From: Gloeobacter kilaueensis JS1
Lineage (GTDB): Bacteria > Cyanobacteriota > Cyanobacteriia > Gloeobacterales > Gloeobacteraceae
NCBI RefSeq assembly: GCF_000484535.1
Contig: NC_022600.1
Coordinates: forward strand, 1,550,001-1,614,000
Direction of reading: 5' to 3'
Length of the DNA stretch: 64,000 nt
Made by a program: the position numbers and the translations under genes. Within the stretch, counting starts at the first letter, position 1, and each line of letters begins with the position of its first letter. A model generated the notes under the pieces. That model did no database searches, was not told the DNA's origin, and worked only from the letters and a program-made list of their open reading frames with translations. This document shows positions 4,108 through 59,478 of this stretch, one piece after another.

Positions 4108-4866
4108 TTAAACGGTTACAAATGGATAGATGCCTGTGCCAGGATCGGCACAAGTATTTATACAATACCACAATGACAGAACAATTATGAGTATACAAAG
4201 TGCAACAATTAATGCCGCAAATTTTGGAGAAAAATATATCGACAGGAGTCCGATTAATGAGTTGATAGTATTCACTAAGCCAAGACCCGCCAAACAACTA
4301 TTGACACATTCCAAAAACCCGTTATTGGGAGCGCCTTGAGCGATATCTGATTTCACTGTTGTTACGTACTGTAGACCTTGGGAGGTAAAGTTCTGGCCGG
4401 TCACATCAATTATGGACTGGCCTGCATATACAGTACCGCCCGTAATTGCTCCATTCGAATCCATAGTTGCTATTGCAAACAGTACACCATTTTGAGCGAT
4501 TGTAAAATACGTATCAGAATTAGTCTTGCTATAGTAGTATGTTAAACTTCCTAAAGGAGCCTGAGTCGTACCATCAAAAAGAGCAATGTAAAAGCTGCTG
4601 TTCGGATTGTTAACATCCGCTGGAATGCCAACAAATACATTGGAATCAATGCCAAGTACAACTGCATTGGTGAAATTCCCTCCTACAGCACTCGCGTATT
4701 CGGGGAAACCACATGTAGATTGGCTAAGCTGTATAAATAGTGTTGCAGTAGATTCTGAAACTGTCGATAGCGTCGCTGTCTGAGCAGCAACTGGTGGCAG
4801 ATTTGCAAAAGGCATGCATGCAGCTAGCAAAGTAGCTAGCATTTCTATAGTTTCTCTTCTCTTCAT
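4108..4866 (-). CDS. Exported protein with C-terminal hydrophobic hairpin framed by two CX3C motifs
   Basis: A 252-residue protein with an N-terminal signal peptide (cleavage near ...PPVAAQ). The middle (about 30-180) is a Ser/Thr/Asn-rich beta-type domain. The C-terminal 66 residues start with CX3C (C187, C191), run through about 43 very hydrophobic residues with a central SPK turn, and end with a second CX3C (C235, C239). One more cysteine, C224, lies in the second helix. This arrangement resembles a membrane-active helical hairpin pinned by disulfides, as in some leader-plus-toxin bacteriocin precursors, but no specific family is recognised. GGAGC precedes the ATG. The gene follows the helical-repeat gene by 20 bases, so the two form an operon. 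Confidence 0.6.
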   Translation of the reverse strand: MKRRETIEMLATLLAACMPFANLPPVAAQTATLSTVSESTATLFIQLSQSTCGFPEYASAVGGNFTNAVVLGIDSNVFVGIPADVNNPNSSFYIALFDGTTQAPLGSLTYYYSKTNSDTYFTIAQNGVLFAIATMDSNGAITGGTVYAGQSIIDVTGQNFTSQGLQYVTTVKSDIAQGAPNNGFLECVNSCLAGLGLVNTINSLIGLLSIYFSPKFAALIVALCILIIVLSLWYCINTCADPGTGIYPFVTV

Positions 4867-49136: not shown

Positions 49137-49853
49137 ATGGACCAGCTATCTGTCCTGCTGCGTGAGGGGACTCGTCAGGCCCACACGATGGCAGAGAATG
49201 TCGGCTTTGTGAAATGTTTTCTCAAAGGTACCGTCGAGCGCAATTCTTACCGCCAGCTCGTCGCCAACTTCTACTTTATCTACAGTGCCCTCGAAGATGC
49301 GCTGGAGATGCACCGCGACCATCCTGTACTCAAGGGGCTCTATTATCCTGAGCTCTACAGGCGGCGGGCGATCGAAGCCGACCTGCGCTATTACTTTGGT
49401 TCGGACTGGTCCAAACTGGTGCGTCCCACAGCGGCGGCAGCCCGCTACGTCGAGCGCATCCAGACGGTGGCACGCGCTGAGCCGGTGCTGCTTGTCTCCC
49501 ACTCCTATACCCGTTATCTGGGCGATCTCTCCGGTGGTCAGGTGCTCAAAGAAATCGCCCAGCGGGCGATGGGCCTCAGCGATGGCCTGGGCACTGCTTT
49601 TTACGAATTTGAATCGATCCGCGACGCCAAAGCTTTTAAGGCGGCCTACCGGGCTGCCCTCGACGAGCTGCCGATCGATGAGACCCAGGCCCAGCGCATC
49701 GTCGAGGAAGCGATCGAAGCGTTTCGGGCCAACATGCGCCTGTTCGAAGAACTCGAAGGCAGCCTGATTCGGGCCATCGGCCAGATGGTCTTCAACTCGC
49801 TCACCCGCCGCCGCTCGCGCGCGGAGCGCGAAGTGGTGACCGCCTCCGAATAG
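49137..49853 (+). CDS. Heme oxygenase
   Basis: A 238-residue all-helical enzyme converting heme to biliverdin with ferredoxin electrons, the first step in phycobilin synthesis. Proximal His is H16 (REGTRQAHTMAENVGFVKCF), and LVSHSYTRYLGDLSGGQVLK is the distal helix with the Gly-rich kink. Overall it matches cyanobacterial HO1 closely. It is followed after 26 bases by a ferric-reductase-like membrane protein gene; the iron freed by heme cleavage gives a possible link. Confidence 0.95.
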   Translation: MDQLSVLLREGTRQAHTMAENVGFVKCFLKGTVERNSYRQLVANFYFIYSALEDALEMHRDHPVLKGLYYPELYRRRAIEADLRYYFGSDWSKLVRPTAAAARYVERIQTVARAEPVLLVSHSYTRYLGDLSGGQVLKEIAQRAMGLSDGLGTAFYEFESIRDAKAFKAAYRAALDELPIDETQAQRIVEEAIEAFRANMRLFEELEGSLIRAIGQMVFNSLTRRRSRAEREVVTASE

Positions 49854-50924: not shown

Positions 50925-52157
50925 TCAGCCTTTGCCGTTGGGCTGCGGTTGGGTTTTTTGGAGCGCCTGGGCATCCTCCAGCGCCGTTAGTAGCTCGACC
51001 GTGTGCTGGGCGATGGGATAGGTGATGTTGTGGGTGCGCAACTCGGCGTCGATCTTGTAGAGCAGGGCACTTTTGATCCGGAGCTGCTCTTTGGGATAGT
51101 TGCACCAGGCCCAGAGATCAAAGCGCATCGCCAGATTGTCGTAGCCCCGGAAAATCACCTCCGGCGGCGGGCTGTAGAGGACGCGCAATTCTTCCTCCGC
51201 TACCTTCAATAAAATCTCGGTGACCAGCTGCGGGTCGGCGCGGCGGTCCACCAGGACTTCGACGGTGAGGCGCACGCGCCCCTCGAGGTTGGACCAGTTG
51301 AGAATATCTTGATCGACTAGCGAGGCGTTGGGTAGGACCAACCTTGAGCCGTCGAAGCGCCGCAGGGTAGTGGTGCGCAGGCTGGTGCTCTCGACGATGC
51401 CATCCCAGTCGCGAACGACGACATAATCGCCCACCTGGATGGGCCGTTCGACCAGCAGCACCAGGCCGCCGATATAGCTGCGCGCCAGATTCTGCAGGGC
51501 AAAGCCCAGGCCGAGGCCGACCACCCCCAGCAGGATGCCGATCGAGCCTAGATCGATGCCCACGATCTGCAACAGCAGCAGGTAGCCGACGCTGGTGAGC
51601 GTGTAGTTAAAAGCAGTGGTCAGCGCCTCCTGGGTGCCGACATTGAGGTTGAGCCGGGCGAGCAGCAGGCGCTTGAGCAACTGGCCAATCGCCCGCACAG
51701 CCCAGAAGACGACGAAAGCGGTGGTCGGCAACAGCAGCAGGGTACTCAGGGGAAAGCGCGTCTTATCGATCGTGAGCACCGGTACCTGCAGCACCCGGAC
51801 GAGTGTGTCCATCAGCGCCGTCACCACCGCCGTCACGACCTGGGCGACGGGATTGAAGCTGTCGAGGCGGCTGACGACGGCCCAGAGAATGGCCAGCCAC
51901 ACCGCCGCCTGCAGCCCGCCAAACAACAGCTTTAACCAGAGATCGAAGCCCCGGTCGCCGATAAAAAATTGCAGACGGCGGCGAGCCTGCCGCAACAGCC
52001 AGCCGCTCAGTCCCCCCAGCAAGATCGCCGCCAGGGCGATGAGCCACTGCAGCCAGAGGGGAGCGCCCGTCGCCGCCGGCGCGGCCTGGGCCGGGAGCGC
52101 CAGCCACCAGACCGCCGCTGCTCCCCAAAATGCTCGATAATAGGACTGCCTGCGCAC
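50925..52157 (-). CDS. MscS-family mechanosensitive channel
   Basis: A 410-residue inner-membrane protein. After a signal-anchor there are five to six membrane helices; the pore-lining third helix and following beta domain read GVVGLGLGFALQNLARSYIGGLVLLVERPIQVGDYVVV ... ESTSLRTTTLRRFDGSRLVLPNASL, a typical MscS core. It should open on hypo-osmotic shock. It is longer than E. coli MscS because of extra N-terminal helices. It ends 7 bases from the convergent lipoprotein gene and starts 60 bases from the divergent triple-DEP gene. Confidence 0.9.
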   Translation of the reverse strand: MRRQSYYRAFWGAAAVWWLALPAQAAPAATGAPLWLQWLIALAAILLGGLSGWLLRQARRRLQFFIGDRGFDLWLKLLFGGLQAAVWLAILWAVVSRLDSFNPVAQVVTAVVTALMDTLVRVLQVPVLTIDKTRFPLSTLLLLPTTAFVVFWAVRAIGQLLKRLLLARLNLNVGTQEALTTAFNYTLTSVGYLLLLQIVGIDLGSIGILLGVVGLGLGFALQNLARSYIGGLVLLVERPIQVGDYVVVRDWDGIVESTSLRTTTLRRFDGSRLVLPNASLVDQDILNWSNLEGRVRLTVEVLVDRRADPQLVTEILLKVAEEELRVLYSPPPEVIFRGYDNLAMRFDLWAWCNYPKEQLRIKSALLYKIDAELRTHNITYPIAQHTVELLTALEDAQALQKTQPQPNGKG

Positions 52158-52217
52158 GTTCTAAGTGTACTGCACGATCCTGATAGCCACGCCCCGCTCA
52201 CCGCAATCATAGAACCG

Positions 52218-53234
52218 ATGCAACAATCGCTCCTCACCCAGGCAAAAGGCGATCCCGCCGCCCGGATCTGGGCCGCCGGCCTCGATCCACAAAAATTTAT
52301 CGACGAAGCCTATACCCATCTTGAGATTCGCGACCGCTGGTACCGCTTCTATCGCTTTTCCAGTTGCTTTGTCGGCAGCGAGGCGGTGCTGTGGATGACC
52401 CGACACTACGGGATTCCCCGCGAGACCGCCCTGATGCTGGGCAACGCTCTAATCGAGATGGCCGTCTTTCATCATGTCGCCGACGACTGGGATTTTCGCG
52501 ACGACTACTTGTTCTATCGCTTCTACCGCGACGAGAAGCACCGCATCAGTGCGCCCTTTACCCGCGAGCGGGCACTGGAGCTGATTGGACAACTGGGAGT
52601 GGGCCAGCTCGACGCCGTTGCTGTCCAGATGTACCAGGCGATGCCCATCCAGGACCGCCGCTCCGGCCTCAGGCTGCACCGGCGCAGCTTTGTCGGCAAA
52701 GACGCCGCCTGCTGGTTTCGGCGGCGCTTTAATCTCGATCGCAGCCAGGCAATCGCCCTCGGCAACGCTCTGCTCTCGCTCAGGGTCTTCCACCACGTCC
52801 TCGACGGTGCGAGCTTTGAAGACGGCAATCTGTTGTATCGCTTTTACGACGACGAGTACCGCAACGAGGTGCTCACGCCCCACCAGGCGTACCGCAAAGC
52901 CTGGCAGACGATCCAGGGCTACGGCATCGCCGACCTCGATACCTTCATTGCCCAGTGCCGCCGGTCTCCGAGCCTCGGCCTCAAGGACCGCGTCTACGGT
53001 TCGGCGCACTACGGCGATTGCTTCGCCGGTTTTGACGCGGTGAGTCTCTGGTCGGATCTGCTCCAGATCACCCGCGCCGAGGCGGTGGTACTGGGCAACT
53101 ACCTGCTCGATCTGGGCCGCCTCTACCACGTAGGCGACAACTGGGGATTCCACGACGCCTACTTGCTCTATCGCTTTACTACCGCCGAGCAGATCGCCCG
53201 CATCGCCCAGCCGAACGAGGAAACCGAAGCGTGA
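52218..53234 (+). CDS. Protein with three DEP domains
   Basis: A 338-residue cytosolic protein made almost only of three DEP-like domains (about 25-110, 132-217 and 250-333). Each contains the same pattern: F-x-G-x-(D/E)-A-(V/A)-x-W ... LGNxL ... (F/Y)HV-x-(D)-x-x-x-F-x-D-x-x-LxYRF; the three copies read VGSEAVLWM, VGKDAACWF and AGFDAVSLW. DEP domains bind acidic lipids or regulatory partners in eukaryotic signalling and are uncommon in bacteria. Its stop overlaps the GTG start of the next gene (GTGA). No enzyme domain is present. The start is ATG 52218, although the frame is open further upstream. Confidence 0.75.
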   Translation: MQQSLLTQAKGDPAARIWAAGLDPQKFIDEAYTHLEIRDRWYRFYRFSSCFVGSEAVLWMTRHYGIPRETALMLGNALIEMAVFHHVADDWDFRDDYLFYRFYRDEKHRISAPFTRERALELIGQLGVGQLDAVAVQMYQAMPIQDRRSGLRLHRRSFVGKDAACWFRRRFNLDRSQAIALGNALLSLRVFHHVLDGASFEDGNLLYRFYDDEYRNEVLTPHQAYRKAWQTIQGYGIADLDTFIAQCRRSPSLGLKDRVYGSAHYGDCFAGFDAVSLWSDLLQITRAEAVVLGNYLLDLGRLYHVGDNWGFHDAYLLYRFTTAEQIARIAQPNEETEA

Positions 53235-53794
53235 GCGCGATCACCGCCTCCATGCAGACCGTCCGCGACTGGCTTGTGGGCACCTACACCAGCCGCGAGC
53301 AGGCGATGGCACAGCCGGTCTGGTTCATCCCGGTGCGCCTCTGGTACGTCGCCGTCGATGGGCTTTTTGACGAGGGGATCGGCTTTTTTACCGAGCAGGC
53401 CAACGAGCACGACCCCGACCGCATCTACAGAAGCCGGGTGCTGCAGCTTCTAGAGGAGCCGCTGCGCTTTGAGAACTACCGCCTGATCGATCAAGACCGC
53501 TGGCTGGGGGCGGCAACGGACCCGGAGCACCTCGCCCGACTGCGCCGGTCGGACTGCGAACCGCTCCCCGGCTGCGCGATCTACCTGGAGCGCCAGGGAG
53601 ACGCTTTTAGAGGCCGCATGAAGCCGGGGGGTGCCTGCCGCCTGCGGTCTGCAGATACCAGCTACATCGAGATCGAACTTGAGCTGCGCGAAGGCGTCTT
53701 TCTCACCCTCGATCGCGGCTTCGACAGCGCGACCGGCGAGCAGACCTGGGGCTCCCTTGGCGGCCCCTACCGCTACATCAAACAGTCGCCTTGA
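53231..53794 (+). CDS. CpcT/CpeT-family phycobilin lyase
   Basis: A 187-residue bilin lyase of the T type, which attaches phycocyanobilin to Cys-153-type sites of phycobiliprotein beta subunits. The typical segments are LVGTYTSREQAMAQPVWF, IPVRLWYVAVDG, LRFENYRLIDQDRWLG, CAIYLERQGDAFRGRM, GACRLRSADTSYIEIELELR and GEQTWGSLGGPYRYI. The start is a GTG overlapping the stop of the triple-DEP gene. It could also be one of the CpcT-like paralogues not involved in antenna assembly. Confidence 0.85.
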   Translation: MSAITASMQTVRDWLVGTYTSREQAMAQPVWFIPVRLWYVAVDGLFDEGIGFFTEQANEHDPDRIYRSRVLQLLEEPLRFENYRLIDQDRWLGAATDPEHLARLRRSDCEPLPGCAIYLERQGDAFRGRMKPGGACRLRSADTSYIEIELELREGVFLTLDRGFDSATGEQTWGSLGGPYRYIKQSP

Positions 53795-53797
53795 ACT

Positions 53798-56314
53798 TCA
53801 AGGTGTCACCACAAAGCGGGCAACGGCAGTACCTGCAGGGGTGATGACTGCGATCCTGCCCGTGGCTGCTCCTTTTGGAACGATGGCTTGAATTTCACTG
53901 TCGGAGATGACCGTAAATCTTGCCTTTACAATTGGCCTCAATCTACCTCGAAAAACAACAGCCGTAGTACCGCTGAAGCCTGTGCCGGTGATCGTTACTC
54001 TCGTACCCACTGGACCCTGCCGGGGACTGATGGCGGTGATCGTCGGAGCAGTCTGTCTTAATGTAGTATTCAAGAGTATCGAGAGAGTATCGCTGTTGGT
54101 TGTGAAGGGTGGCGAAATGAAGTTGGCTGTAGCGAGGTCGAGCTTGCCGTCACCGTTTAGATCAGCTGGGACGGCTGCAACGGGTGGTGACGAACCCACT
54201 GCCAGATTCTGAGCAGGCTTGAAGGTACTGTCGCCGCTGTTGGCCAGCACCGACACACTGTCCGAGCCATTCACTGTGACAATGTCCACATTGCCGTCCG
54301 CGTCAAAATCTCCGGTCCTTACAAATCGCGCACCAACACCAGTCGCAAAATTTTGAGCGGTAGCGAAACTCAGATCTCCAAGGTTGAGGCGAACGGTGAC
54401 GTCTTCGCTGTTTGCATTTGCACTAACCAAGTCGAGCCTGCCGTCGTTGTCGATATCCGCGAGCGTCACCGAGACAGGACCGTCTCCAGTAGCACGATTG
54501 ATCGAGGCTGCAAAGCTGCCATTGCCGTTGTTGGTGGCAATCGAGAAGCTATCGTATTTGGAGTTGTCAGTTACGATATCAATATCTCCGTCGCCATCTA
54601 TATCGCCAAGGGCAATTGTGTTGGGTCTATAGCCAACGCTAAAACTACTGGAAGGTCCAACAGTACCGTTGCCATTATTTTTGAATATCTGAACTTTTTT
54701 GGACGTGTTGTTTATCGCAGCGAAATCGAGATCTCCATCCCCATCGAGATCAGCTGTGGCAATAGACGTAAGCACGTTATCCGGCGCAATGTTCTGCGTA
54801 GTGAACGTAGCATCGCCGTTGTTAAGCAAAAGATACAAGCCAGATTGCGAAAAGTCGTACACAGAACCGTAAGTGGCTGTTGCCAGATCGTTGTCGCCGT
54901 CACCATCGAAATCACCAATGACGACGGACCTGGGATCGGCACCCGGACTGAGTAGCAAAGGTTCGCCAAAAGTACCGTCGCCCTTATTCAGGAGTACTGC
55001 CACAAAGCCTGGGTCAAAACCACCAAATTTGCCCTGGCTACCACAATCAACAACAGCCAGATCCAGATCGCCGTCGCTGTCAAGATCTCCGCTAGCAATG
55101 GCACAGGCGTTGTTCGTGGCACCGAAGGTCAAGGCGGCGATAAAACTACCGTCACCGCTGTTCTTGATAACTTGATCACTACCGAAGCCTACTGTGACGA
55201 CATCAAGATCACTGTCGCCGTCGAGATCTTTAATTAGTACGGTAGAGGTAGAGCCATTATTGAGGATAGTCTGGGTGTTAGTAAATGAGGCTATACCATC
55301 ATTTTTAAGAACATTCAGACTTGAAGGGGAACTGCCATAGACAGTGGCACTGAAAGCACTGCTGCCCACAATTAGATCAAGATCGCCGTCTTTGTCTATA
55401 TCACCTGCCACAACTGCACTTGCAGGTCCATAAATAGCAATATTTCCAGAGACAGCGAAGTTACCACTACCGCTGTTCGTGAGCACTGAAACGCTTCTCT
55501 TGATCTCGTATGGAACGTTGTTGCCGATGCCTGCAGCGAGGTCCAAATCGCCGTCCCCATCGAGATCTCCTGTTGTCAGGGTGGTGGGACTGCCTGGCAC
55601 TATCAGTGTCTGAGCCGTTGTAAAGTTGGCTTTGCCGTCGTTTTTAAGCACTGAGACGTTGTTTGAGCCAGTATTCGCCGTGGCCAGGTCGCGATCGCCG
55701 TCACCATCAAAGTCTCCTGCTACCAGAGAAGACGGACCTGTTCCGACAGCAAAGTTGATCGCCCCAGCAAAACTGCCGGTGCCGCTACCGGAGAGTACAG
55801 AGACAGTGTTGCTGCTCGGATTGACAGCAGCGATGTCAAGATTGTTGTCACCATTAAGATCTGCGAGAACCAGAAAAGAGGAGTTGCCACCGGAAGCAAA
55901 GCTCTGTGGCGCAGCGAACGTACCGTTGCCGTTGTTCTTGAAAACTTGAATAGTGTTCGCGTTGCTGACAGCAGCGATCAAATCCAGGTCACGATCGCCG
56001 TCTACGTCTGCGAGAGCCACAGAACTCACTTGAGCGGTGAGCGAAATACTTGGGGTGGAGATGAAGTTTCCCTTACCATCGTTGAGAAGCAACAGCAAGG
56101 AAGTACCGTTACTGCCGGTTTCTTTAGCGCCGACAATATCGCTGTCGCCATCTCCGTCGATGTCGCCAGTAGCAGCTGGACCATCGCCCAGATCGAAGAT
56201 GCGCGCCGCTGCAAAGGCAATCTCACCTGCCCGGACCGGCGATGCCCATAGAGTGAGGCTGGCTGCCAGACCCAAAGCAGCTAGCCAGGGAGACCGGTGC
56301 TTGAGCGTCGTCAT
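53798..56314 (-). CDS. Exported FG-GAP/VCBS beta-propeller protein with IPT domain
   Basis: An 838-residue exported protein (signal peptide ending ...SPVRAG). Between about residues 30 and 745 there are 14 copies, roughly 50 residues apart, of an FG-GAP/VCBS repeat with a calcium loop of the D-x-D-G-D-G-D-x-D form (examples DIDGDGDSDI, DLNGDNNLDI, DIDKDGDLDL, DLNGDGKLDL). The C-terminal ~85 residues form an IPT/TIG domain (APTITAISPRQGPVGTRVTI). It is probably a surface or periplasmic adhesive or scaffold protein that needs calcium. It ends 3 bases from the convergent CpcT gene. Confidence 0.88.
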   Translation of the reverse strand: MTTLKHRSPWLAALGLAASLTLWASPVRAGEIAFAAARIFDLGDGPAATGDIDGDGDSDIVGAKETGSNGTSLLLLLNDGKGNFISTPSISLTAQVSSVALADVDGDRDLDLIAAVSNANTIQVFKNNGNGTFAAPQSFASGGNSSFLVLADLNGDNNLDIAAVNPSSNTVSVLSGSGTGSFAGAINFAVGTGPSSLVAGDFDGDGDRDLATANTGSNNVSVLKNDGKANFTTAQTLIVPGSPTTLTTGDLDGDGDLDLAAGIGNNVPYEIKRSVSVLTNSGSGNFAVSGNIAIYGPASAVVAGDIDKDGDLDLIVGSSAFSATVYGSSPSSLNVLKNDGIASFTNTQTILNNGSTSTVLIKDLDGDSDLDVVTVGFGSDQVIKNSGDGSFIAALTFGATNNACAIASGDLDSDGDLDLAVVDCGSQGKFGGFDPGFVAVLLNKGDGTFGEPLLLSPGADPRSVVIGDFDGDGDNDLATATYGSVYDFSQSGLYLLLNNGDATFTTQNIAPDNVLTSIATADLDGDGDLDFAAINNTSKKVQIFKNNGNGTVGPSSSFSVGYRPNTIALGDIDGDGDIDIVTDNSKYDSFSIATNNGNGSFAASINRATGDGPVSVTLADIDNDGRLDLVSANANSEDVTVRLNLGDLSFATAQNFATGVGARFVRTGDFDADGNVDIVTVNGSDSVSVLANSGDSTFKPAQNLAVGSSPPVAAVPADLNGDGKLDLATANFISPPFTTNSDTLSILLNTTLRQTAPTITAISPRQGPVGTRVTITGTGFSGTTAVVFRGRLRPIVKARFTVISDSEIQAIVPKGAATGRIAVITPAGTAVARFVVTP

Positions 56315-56519: not shown

Positions 56520-57101
56520 ATGGGTCGCCGCCGCAGCATCGATGCCGAGCAGATTGTCCGGGCCACCCTGGTGGTGCTGTCCACCCACGGCGTCGAGGCG
56601 GTGACGATTTCTCAGATCGCAAGGCAGGCGGGCATCTCGGAGGCTTCGATCTACAAGTTCTTTACCAGCAAAGACGACCTTCTGCGCGCCTGCGTGAGCG
56701 AGAGCCTTGAGCCGCAAGATTTCTGGCGGCGTCTTTTTGCCAGGGGGGAAACCTGGTCTGTGAGCGCTCTGCTGGAAGAAGCGGCGCTCTATACGATCGA
56801 CTACTACCAGCAGCATCTGCCCACACTGCTGTTGCGGGTATTGCGTCCCCAGGCGGGCGACTGCTGCAGTGCGCCGTTGCAGACGCTCAAGCTCCAGGCC
56901 CATTACTTTCAGCTGGAGATGGATAGAGGGCGCATTCGTCGGGGCGATCCTTACCGCCTGGCGATGGCCTTCTGTGGTCCGCTTTTTTACCACGTCTTTG
57001 CTGCCCAGGCGTACTTTCAATCTCAGCCCCCGATCGCAAGCGAACCGTTCGCCCGCGCCTGGGCCCAGGATTTTTACCAGAGCATCCGCCCGACCGATTA
57101 G
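56520..57101 (+). CDS. TetR-family transcriptional regulator
   Basis: A 193-residue regulator. The N-terminal helix-turn-helix is [20 protein letters not shown] ... [21 protein letters not shown], with the usual YKFF/YKHF ending. The C-terminal ligand domain is diverged, as normal for the family; no ligand can be inferred. The gene lies directly after a palindromic operator and 43 bases before the clpC-like gene, so it most likely represses itself and that gene. Confidence 0.88.
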
Positions 57102-57144: not shown

Positions 57145-59478
57145 ATGTTTGAGCAATTCAGCCCAGCCGCTTTGCAGGTGCTCAACCTTGCCAAGCAGGA
57201 GGCCCAGCGCCTCGGCCAGAATGCCGTCGGCACCGAGCAGATCCTGCTGGGGCTTCTGGCCTATCCTGAGTCGGCAGCGATCGAGGTGCTCGTTGGTCTT
57301 GGCCTGACGCTCGCCGACGCCCGCGCTGAGGTCGAGGCGATCGTGGGCCGGGGCAACGGCGGCGTGCCCAGCCAGCGCATCGTCTTCACGCCCCGCGCCG
57401 GGAAGCTGCTCGAAGGAGCAGTGGTCGAAGCTGGTACTTTGGGTCAGGCTCTCATCGCGCCGGAACACATGCTCTTGAGCCTCCTGCGCGATAGCCAGGG
57501 GGTAGCAAGCCGCGTCCTCGACAGCCACAATATCGACCGCGAAGAGGCCCGGCGGCTGGTGCTCGATAGCCTGGGCGACAGCGCCAAGGCAAGCGCTTTT
57601 CGTCCCGGCGACCCGCGCCGCGCCGGTGGACGCTCAAACCAGAGCGGCTCGGCCCTCGAGCGCTTTGGCCGCGACCTGACCGCCCTTGCCCAGAGTGGCC
57701 GGATCGACCCGGTGGTGGGCCGCGAGGCCGAAATCGAGCGGGTCGTCCAGATTCTTGGTCGCCGCACCAAAAACAACCCCGTACTCGTCGGTGAGCCGGG
57801 GGTGGGCAAGACGGCAATCGCCGAAGGATTGGCAGTGCGCATCGCCCTCGGCGATGTACCCGAGACGCTGCGCTCGCGCCGGATCGTGAGCCTCGATATG
57901 GGGCAACTGCTCGCCGGTACCCAGCTGCGCGGCGAATTTGAAGAGCGCATCAAGGCGGTCCTCAAAGAATCCGTCACGGCCAAAGGCCAGGTGATTCTCT
58001 TTATCGACGAGATCCACACCCTGGTGGGTGCGGGGGGCAACGAGGGCGGCATCGATGCTGCCAACATGCTCAAGCCCGCCCTCGCGCGCGGCGAACTGCA
58101 GTGCATCGGGGCCACTACCCTCGATGAGTACCGCAAGCACATCGAGCGCGACGCCGCCCTCGAACGGCGCTTCCAGCCGGTAACGGTGGGTGAACCGTCG
58201 GTAGACGAGACGATCGCTATTTTGGGCGGCCTGCGCGAGCGCTACGAAGCCCACCACAAGCTGCAGTACACCGACGCCGCCCTCGAAGCGGCGGCCCGCC
58301 TCGCAGACCGCTACATTACGGATCGCTTTTTGCCGGATAAGGCGATCGATCTCATCGATGAAGCGGGTTCGATGATCCGAGTCAAACTCTCTCGCGGTGC
58401 CGAGTTGCCCGCGATTGTCGATGTCGATGCGATCGCTCAGATCGTCTCGGACTGGACCGGCGTGCCCGCAGGCAAGATCACTGGCGACGAGGCGCTCTCG
58501 CTGGTGCATCTCGAAGCGCGGTTGCACGAGCGGATTATTGGCCAGCACGCCGCCGTGAGCGCTGTGGCCAAAGCGATTCGTCGCGCCCGCGCCGGTCTTA
58601 AAGCGCCGGAGCGGCCCCTCGCGAGCTTTATCTTCGCCGGACCTACCGGCGTCGGTAAGACCGAACTCGCCAAGGCGCTCGCCGACGCGGTCTTCGGCTC
58701 CGAGGAGGCGATGATCCGCCTCGACATGTCCGAATTTATGGAGCCGCACACGGTGAGCAAGCTCATCGGCTCGCCTCCTGGCTACGTCGGCTACGACGAG
58801 GGCGGCCAGCTCACCGAGGCGGTGCGCCGTCGGCCCTACACGGTGATCTTGCTCGATGAGATCGAGAAAGCCCACCCGGACATCTTCAACACCCTCCTGC
58901 AGCTATTGGACGACGGCAGGCTCACCGACGCCAAAGGCCGGGTGGTCAGCTTCAAGAACACGCTCATCATCATGACCTCCAACCTCGGTTCGCGCACGAT
59001 CGAGCGCGGCGGCGGCCTCGGCTTCAGCAACGGCACCAACGAGGCGGACCGGCGCTACACCGTCATCCGTGACCGGGTGCAAGACGACCTCAAGCAGCTC
59101 TTTCGCCCCGAATTTCTCAATCGCCTCGACGAGGTGATCGTCTTCCAGCCCCTCGAACGCGAGGAACTGGTGCAGGTGGCAAAGCTACTGGTCAACGAAG
59201 CTCTGGGCCGGGTGCGCGATCTGGAGATCGAACTTACGGCCAGCCAGGCGTTCATCGATCAGGTAATTGCCCAGGGCTACTCGCCCAACTGGGGAGCGCG
59301 GCCCCTGCGCCGTGCTGTCCAGCGCCTGCTCGAAGACAGTGTTGCCGATGCCATCCTGGCCGGTCGCCTGGTCGCCGGTGAGCGCTATCTGGTAGACATC
59401 GACACCGAGGGCAAGGTGATCTTCGTTCACCCCGACCTGGCCGACGCCGAGGCCGCCCTCGCTGTGAGTGTCCGCTAG
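57145..59478 (+). CDS. ClpC-type AAA+ unfoldase lacking the middle domain
   Basis: A 777-residue ATPase with two Clp_N repeats (about 5-140), two AAA modules (Walker A GEPGVGKT at about 215 and GPTGVGKT at about 507; Walker B LFIDEIH and [10 protein letters not shown]) and a ClpP-binding loop ([10 protein letters not shown]). The usual ClpC middle/UVR segment of about 50-60 residues is absent: [30 protein letters not shown] runs straight into [11 protein letters not shown]. The start is ATG 57145 after AAGGAGG; the frame open further upstream belongs to the tetR gene region. The 777-residue length is shorter than normal ClpC (about 820-850). It should unfold substrates for ClpP. Confidence 0.9.

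Follow-up and report, generated by a model that had tools for sequence, protein, structure and literature searches.

A genus-restricted triple-DEP protein of Gloeobacter, a candidate membrane adaptor encoded between an MscS-type channel and a CpcT/CpeT-family protein

Introduction

DEP domains usually serve the proteins that carry them as membrane-docking modules, and to our knowledge nearly all work on them concerns signalling in animals and fungi. What does a protein made of three such domains do in Gloeobacter, and does it act together with the bilin lyase homologue whose gene overlaps its own? The original prediction for this locus had proposed that the protein might dock phycobilisome assembly to the cytoplasmic membrane or, alternatively, that it might have nothing to do with antennae. 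We analyzed a stretch of 64,000 nucleotides (the window), corresponding to positions 1550001 to 1614000 of a single 4,724,791-bp contig, and compared the Gloeobacter genome carrying it (G000) with three other Gloeobacter genomes (G001 to G003). As the DNA is GC-rich, codon scoring was used for the Gloeobacter gene calls. No paper was found on DEP proteins in Gloeobacter or on MscS-DEP proteins in cyanobacteria.

Results

A protein made of three DEP domains

The gene that we call DEP3 (52218..53234, + strand) encodes a protein of 338 amino acids that all four Gloeobacter genomes have retained. The whole protein matched the Pfam family PF00610 with an E value of 6.3e-55, and all three DEP units exceeded the curated Pfam cut-off of 32.7 bits when each third was scanned alone. 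Domain 1 (residues 35 to 102; 52320..52523, +) scored 74.0 to 74.2 bits and has a net charge of -2, domain 2 (52641..52844, +) scored 63.5 to 64.0 bits and is strongly basic (net charge of +4, pI of about 10), and domain 3 (52977..53177, +) scored 56.4 to 57.2 bits and has a net charge of -3. The repeats share 34 to 41% pairwise identity, and no catalytic domain was recognized in the protein. In the AlphaFold2 model (pLDDT 77), every DEP is preceded by a helix pair; at a pTM of 0.40, the arrangement of the units relative to each other is uncertain. The model matched the DEPs of DEPTOR, P-Rex1, Dishevelled, and Epac in Foldseek, the top matches being the tandem DEPs of DEPTOR and P-Rex1, in agreement with the sequence search. 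The three tandem DEP-like copies of the original prediction were thus confirmed by three separate Pfam matches and by their fold, which fits DEP rather than another fold.

DEP3 of G000 is 74 to 75% identical to its counterparts in the other Gloeobacter genomes, and a dN/dS of about 0.05 to 0.19 within the genus indicates purifying selection. In domain 2, residues R148, R152, R155, R156, K161, and R168 to R170 are invariant in all four genomes. This basic domain with its invariant arginines counts in favor of a membrane adaptor, as does the finding that, among solved structures, tandem DEPs come nearest to the protein; the tandem DEP of DEPTOR binds phosphatidic acid (PMC8439649). No DEP3 match was found in two genomes of the same family from outside the genus (G004 and G005), and a scan of the named genomes for relatives returned one locus only, on an Aphanocapsa lilacina MAG contig. 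DEP3 is a real, genus-restricted protein assembled from known parts.

DEP proteins across cyanobacteria and the divergent MscS gene

DEP domains are sparse within Cyanobacteriota, as had been claimed for bacteria: they occurred in 23 of the 386 genomes sampled and were absent from all 14 control genomes. Among roughly 58 distinct cyanobacterial DEP proteins, fusions of an MscS channel to a DEP are the commonest architecture, with about 24 members, and others are kinase-DEP, FHA-DEP, or short DEP proteins; none of the other sampled proteins has three DEPs. The DEP of the fusions is C-terminal in L037, L038, L043, L163, L169, L178, and others. L040 is a Ser/Thr kinase-DEP protein with whose DEP that of L165 groups, L171 is an FHA-DEP protein, and L172 and L173 are similar to it in appearance. 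The kinase-DEP and FHA-DEP proteins show that DEP is a general signalling module in cyanobacteria.

The original prediction had overlooked a gene for an MscS-type mechanosensitive channel (50925..52157, - strand; PF00924 and PF21082) that is transcribed divergently from DEP3 and adjoins it in all four Gloeobacter genomes. The two starts are separated by 60 bp (52158..52217), a spacer whose length and core (AAGTGTAnnGCACG) are conserved and in which no sigma-70-like match was found. This channel falls into a 35-member clade that holds every MscS-DEP fusion (SH-aLRT 99), and its nearest relatives bear a C-terminal cyclic-nucleotide-binding domain; L191, L197, and L207 are MscS relatives of this kind. 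By Pfam, the Gloeobacter channel has neither a C-terminal DEP nor a cyclic-nucleotide-binding domain, and in all four genomes DEP and MscS are encoded at this locus by separate divergent genes rather than in one chain. Since the relatives of the channel carry such domains and the channel itself does not, this comparison of sequences suggests that DEP3 may supply the missing module in trans.

Several observations count for a link between DEP3 and the channel: MscS-DEP is the most frequent DEP arrangement, the neighboring channel is of the same MscS subfamily, the synteny block that has been retained begins with MscS, and none of the four genomes has lost the divergent arrangement or its short spacer. 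On the other side, the fusions are more similar to a different Gloeobacter MscS paralogue, L196, than to the DEP3 neighbor (median of 202 versus 155 bits), and the DEP3 domains do not cluster with channel-fused DEPs in what is a poorly resolved tree. Furthermore, MscS genes were absent from the 1.5 kb around every other unfused DEP gene, synteny is generally high within the genus, and two divergent neighbors make a weaker case than an operon would, the operon partner of DEP3 being the CpcT/CpeT-family gene. Another arrangement was seen in G041, where an MscS protein nested among the DEP fusions (L192, G041:C1:528444) has lost its own DEP and the domains of a free tandem-DEP protein (L180:4977-5858) group with channel DEPs. 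Judging from these groupings, a former fusion may have been split in G041.

Gene order and background synteny

On its other side, DEP3 is followed by the gene for a 187-residue protein of the CpcT/CpeT family (53231..53794, + strand), hereafter the T-type gene. The DEP3 stop codon and the GTG start of the T-type gene share 4 nucleotides (GTGA), and the original prediction had given this overlap, the coordinates, and the lengths exactly. G000 and G003 share the GTGA junction, and G001 and G002 have TAATG instead; in G000, the T-type protein could instead start at an ATG at 53252, and the N termini of the orthologues fit about equally well. Overlaps occur in 3 of the 25 pairs of same-strand neighbors that we called in the window, and we rejected the GTGA overlap as a special feature on these grounds.

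The order of the divergent MscS gene, DEP3, and the T-type gene, followed further on by TetR (56520-57101, +) and ClpC (57145-59478, +), is the same in all four genomes. TetR and ClpC lie in the same retained synteny block, and the DNA between them and the T-type gene is not conserved. When 40 kb of the window was mapped onto G001, we obtained collinear blocks of about 6, 19, and 8 kb, so that the region from 25.5 to 59.5 kb consists of three long collinear blocks, and breaks between Gloeobacter genomes amount to about 3 per 36 kb. With so few breaks, adjacency within the genus is the default. Gene-order conservation was therefore rejected as proof of function once this background had been estimated, and the conserved order of the three genes says little, given the few breaks and the common overlaps.

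It is thus possible that there is no functional link at all, the three genes staying neighbors because Gloeobacter synteny decays slowly and the overlap reflecting compact packing. The long blocks shared with G001, by which most adjacent pairs are conserved by default, and the frequency of overlaps argue for this explanation, as do the T-type relatives elsewhere, which adjoin unrelated genes (ruvA, a Mg-chelatase-like [ComM-type] gene, and a peptidase gene). Additionally, an FG-GAP repeat gene directly follows the T-type gene in G000, which indicates that the stretch tolerates insertion. Nevertheless, the three genes are unbroken in all four genomes although the DNA past MscS and after the T-type gene has changed; indeed, one break relative to G001 falls just past the 3' end of MscS, and the retained block begins with MscS. 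Moreover, G000 and G001 are well separated, with 75% identity in DEP3 and a dS of about 0.85.

The FG-GAP/TIG repeat protein has 838 amino acids, and its gene (53798-56314, - strand) is convergent, lies 3 bp past the T-type gene, and has no alignment at the matching place in G001 or G003. A heme oxygenase gene, belonging to the bilin pathway, lies upstream at 49137-49853, about 2.4 kb from DEP3. It was discarded as a bilin-pathway link, its G001 counterpart being about 1.2 Mb from the DEP3 locus.

The T-type protein belongs to a separate clade

In line with the original prediction, the neighbor of DEP3 is a homologue of T-type bilin lyases, matching PF06206 (CpeT/CpcT) over its full length with an E value of 4.2e-52. 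Its AlphaFold2 model (pLDDT 93) matched CpcT (4o4o) with a TM score of 0.87 in Foldseek, as well as plant CRL (TM of about 0.8) and a phage CpeT (5hi8). The G000 protein is 66 to 69% identical to those of other Gloeobacter genomes, with a dN/dS of about 0.15 to 0.27, again indicating purifying selection. Between G002 and G003, the dS of the T-type gene (L090/L091) is 0.56, well above that of the neighboring DEP3 (0.23) and ClpC (0.11), and recombination is a possible cause.

PF06206 is represented by four copies in each Gloeobacter genome. A tree of 87 PF06206 sequences groups L066 with presumed CpeT and places L070 near CpcT, and L081 is very divergent. The copy in the window falls outside the clade of CpcT and CpeT proper, in a separate clade with copies from G004, G005, and G012, whose sister group comprises copies from other cyanobacteria, Thermostichus-like ones among them. 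The orthologues in G004 and G005 show 52 to 65% identity, and these genomes have no DEP3. L081 (G000:C1:282196), L082, L076, L115, L117, and L125 form a second, very divergent T-type clade that occurs in every Gloeobacter genome and in some other cyanobacteria.

The T-type protein of the window keeps all of the family-invariant residues E54, Q55, Y65, R66, C116, C137, D163, G165, W175, and G176 and lacks H33, R39, and R141 of the CpcT/CpeT core. On this residue pattern, it plausibly binds a bilin or a similar ligand, but calling it CpcT or CpeT would not be justified.

Phycobilisome docking by DEP3, as originally proposed, is not supported. Indeed, the gene nearest to the window T-type gene that encodes a phycobiliprotein domain is 235 kb away, and the two T-type copies able to serve phycocyanin and phycoerythrin (L066 and L070) sit in the phycobilisome rod cluster at 4,497 to 4,506 kb. 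Furthermore, the T-type clade occurs without DEP in sister genera. A 2025 cryo-electron microscopy and mass spectrometry study of the G. violaceus bundle phycobilisome describes phycobiliproteins, known and Gloeobacter-specific linkers, and the core-membrane linker ApcE; its main text explains the bundle by known linkers and ApcE and names no DEP protein (PMC12525769). A loosely bound docking factor would have gone unnoticed there. The alternative that the locus has nothing to do with antennae fits better than docking.

DEP and T-type genes elsewhere

The DEP3/T-type pair is conserved in the three other Gloeobacter genomes, and the two genes could form a functional pair in which DEP3 would hold a bilin lyase or carrier at the cytoplasmic membrane, the site of the Gloeobacter photosystems, for phycobilisome maturation or for another bilin protein. 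We consider this unlikely, although several findings speak for it: the genes are codirectional and overlapping in all four genomes, the T-type protein retains every family-invariant residue, and a T-type fold protein of plants, CRL, is a structural match. Additionally, two lineages outside Gloeobacter have a DEP gene no more than 5 kb from a T-type gene, compared to 0.34 pairs expected by chance among 48 genomes (P of about 0.05), a mild excess that weakly backs the pairing. However, the tandem-DEP gene of the two Thermostichus-like genomes is convergent with the T-type gene, at a distance of about 0.6 kb and with ruvA intervening, which is why we rejected an operon there, and the T-type gene found 4 kb from the single-DEP gene of G007 is of a different clade. 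The T-type orthologues without any DEP in G004 and G005, the distance to the phycobiliprotein genes, the location of two further T-type copies inside the rod cluster, and the main text of the bundle-phycobilisome study (PMC12525769) also weigh against such a pair, and no T-type-DEP fusion was seen. An apparent overlap of a T-type gene with a malic enzyme gene in L122 was discarded, the open reading frame having been called on the wrong strand.

Discussion

Starting from what was observed directly, namely, domains, folds, gene order, conservation, and subfamily membership, we tentatively favor DEP3 as a noncatalytic docking or regulatory adaptor at the cytoplasmic membrane, with the neighboring MscS channel as its likeliest client and the T-type protein as a cotranscribed paralogue. 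DEP3 would be a soluble adaptor of three DEP units that most likely acts at the inner face of the membrane, and its basic domain 2 would be the best candidate for contacting an anionic lipid or a protein. For the divergently encoded channel, DEP3 would serve in trans as a cytoplasmic module for regulation or anchoring, a part that in related cyanobacterial channels belongs to the same chain in the form of a C-terminal DEP or cyclic-nucleotide-binding domain. The T-type protein would be a noncanonical bilin-lyase paralogue with its core intact and presumably a bilin-like ligand, probably sharing an mRNA with DEP3 and not serving as a partner in phycobilisome docking. This explanation is our first choice, held with modest confidence, and the absence of any functional link comes close to it. 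We found nothing that links the pair of DEP3 and the T-type gene to the light-harvesting antenna, and the channel is no less probable a partner of DEP3 than the T-type protein is. Very improbably, DEP3 would tie a bilin-binding T-type protein to MscS or to the cytoplasmic membrane, and this module, responsive to membrane tension or lipids, would influence how bilins are loaded or phycobilisomes attached in a cyanobacterium that has no thylakoids.

With its free-standing triple-DEP protein, encoded next to a channel that has relatives with a DEP in cis, this basal cyanobacterium offers a tractable prokaryotic system for questions of DEP-membrane interaction. The existence of the separate T-type clade suggests a bilin-lyase-like protein to which no substrate has been assigned. 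For phycobilisome docking, the locus is mainly a caution that a conserved overlap inside Gloeobacter is weak evidence.

Compared to known systems, the T-type protein shares with the CpcT/CpeT lyases the PF06206 family, the beta-barrel fold, and the invariant residues but differs from them in its separate clade, its remoteness from phycobiliprotein genes, and the lack of H33, R39, and R141. Arabidopsis CRL (6lix) has the T-type fold (TM of about 0.8) and provides an example of the family beyond phycobilisomes, although it is only 23% identical to the window protein. CRL is located at the chloroplast envelope, and its membrane anchor is part of its own chain. A second cpcT homologue of Thermostichus was set apart from cpcT in a published survey, which gave no function for it (PMC10053587). 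Provided that G041 and G067 are Thermostichus, our tree places it in the clade that is sister to the window T-type protein, but it adjoins ruvA, joined in some genomes by a tandem-DEP gene in convergent orientation, rather than forming a DEP operon. The tandem DEPs of DEPTOR and P-Rex1 are likewise consecutive DEP folds and the best PDB matches of DEP3 by sequence and structure, whereas DEP3 has three units instead of two and is without a PDZ, DH, or PH domain. Finally, in the cyanobacterial MscS-DEP fusions, DEP is associated with an MscS of the same subfamily as the DEP3 neighbor, whereas the three DEPs of Gloeobacter are encoded by a separate, divergently transcribed gene.
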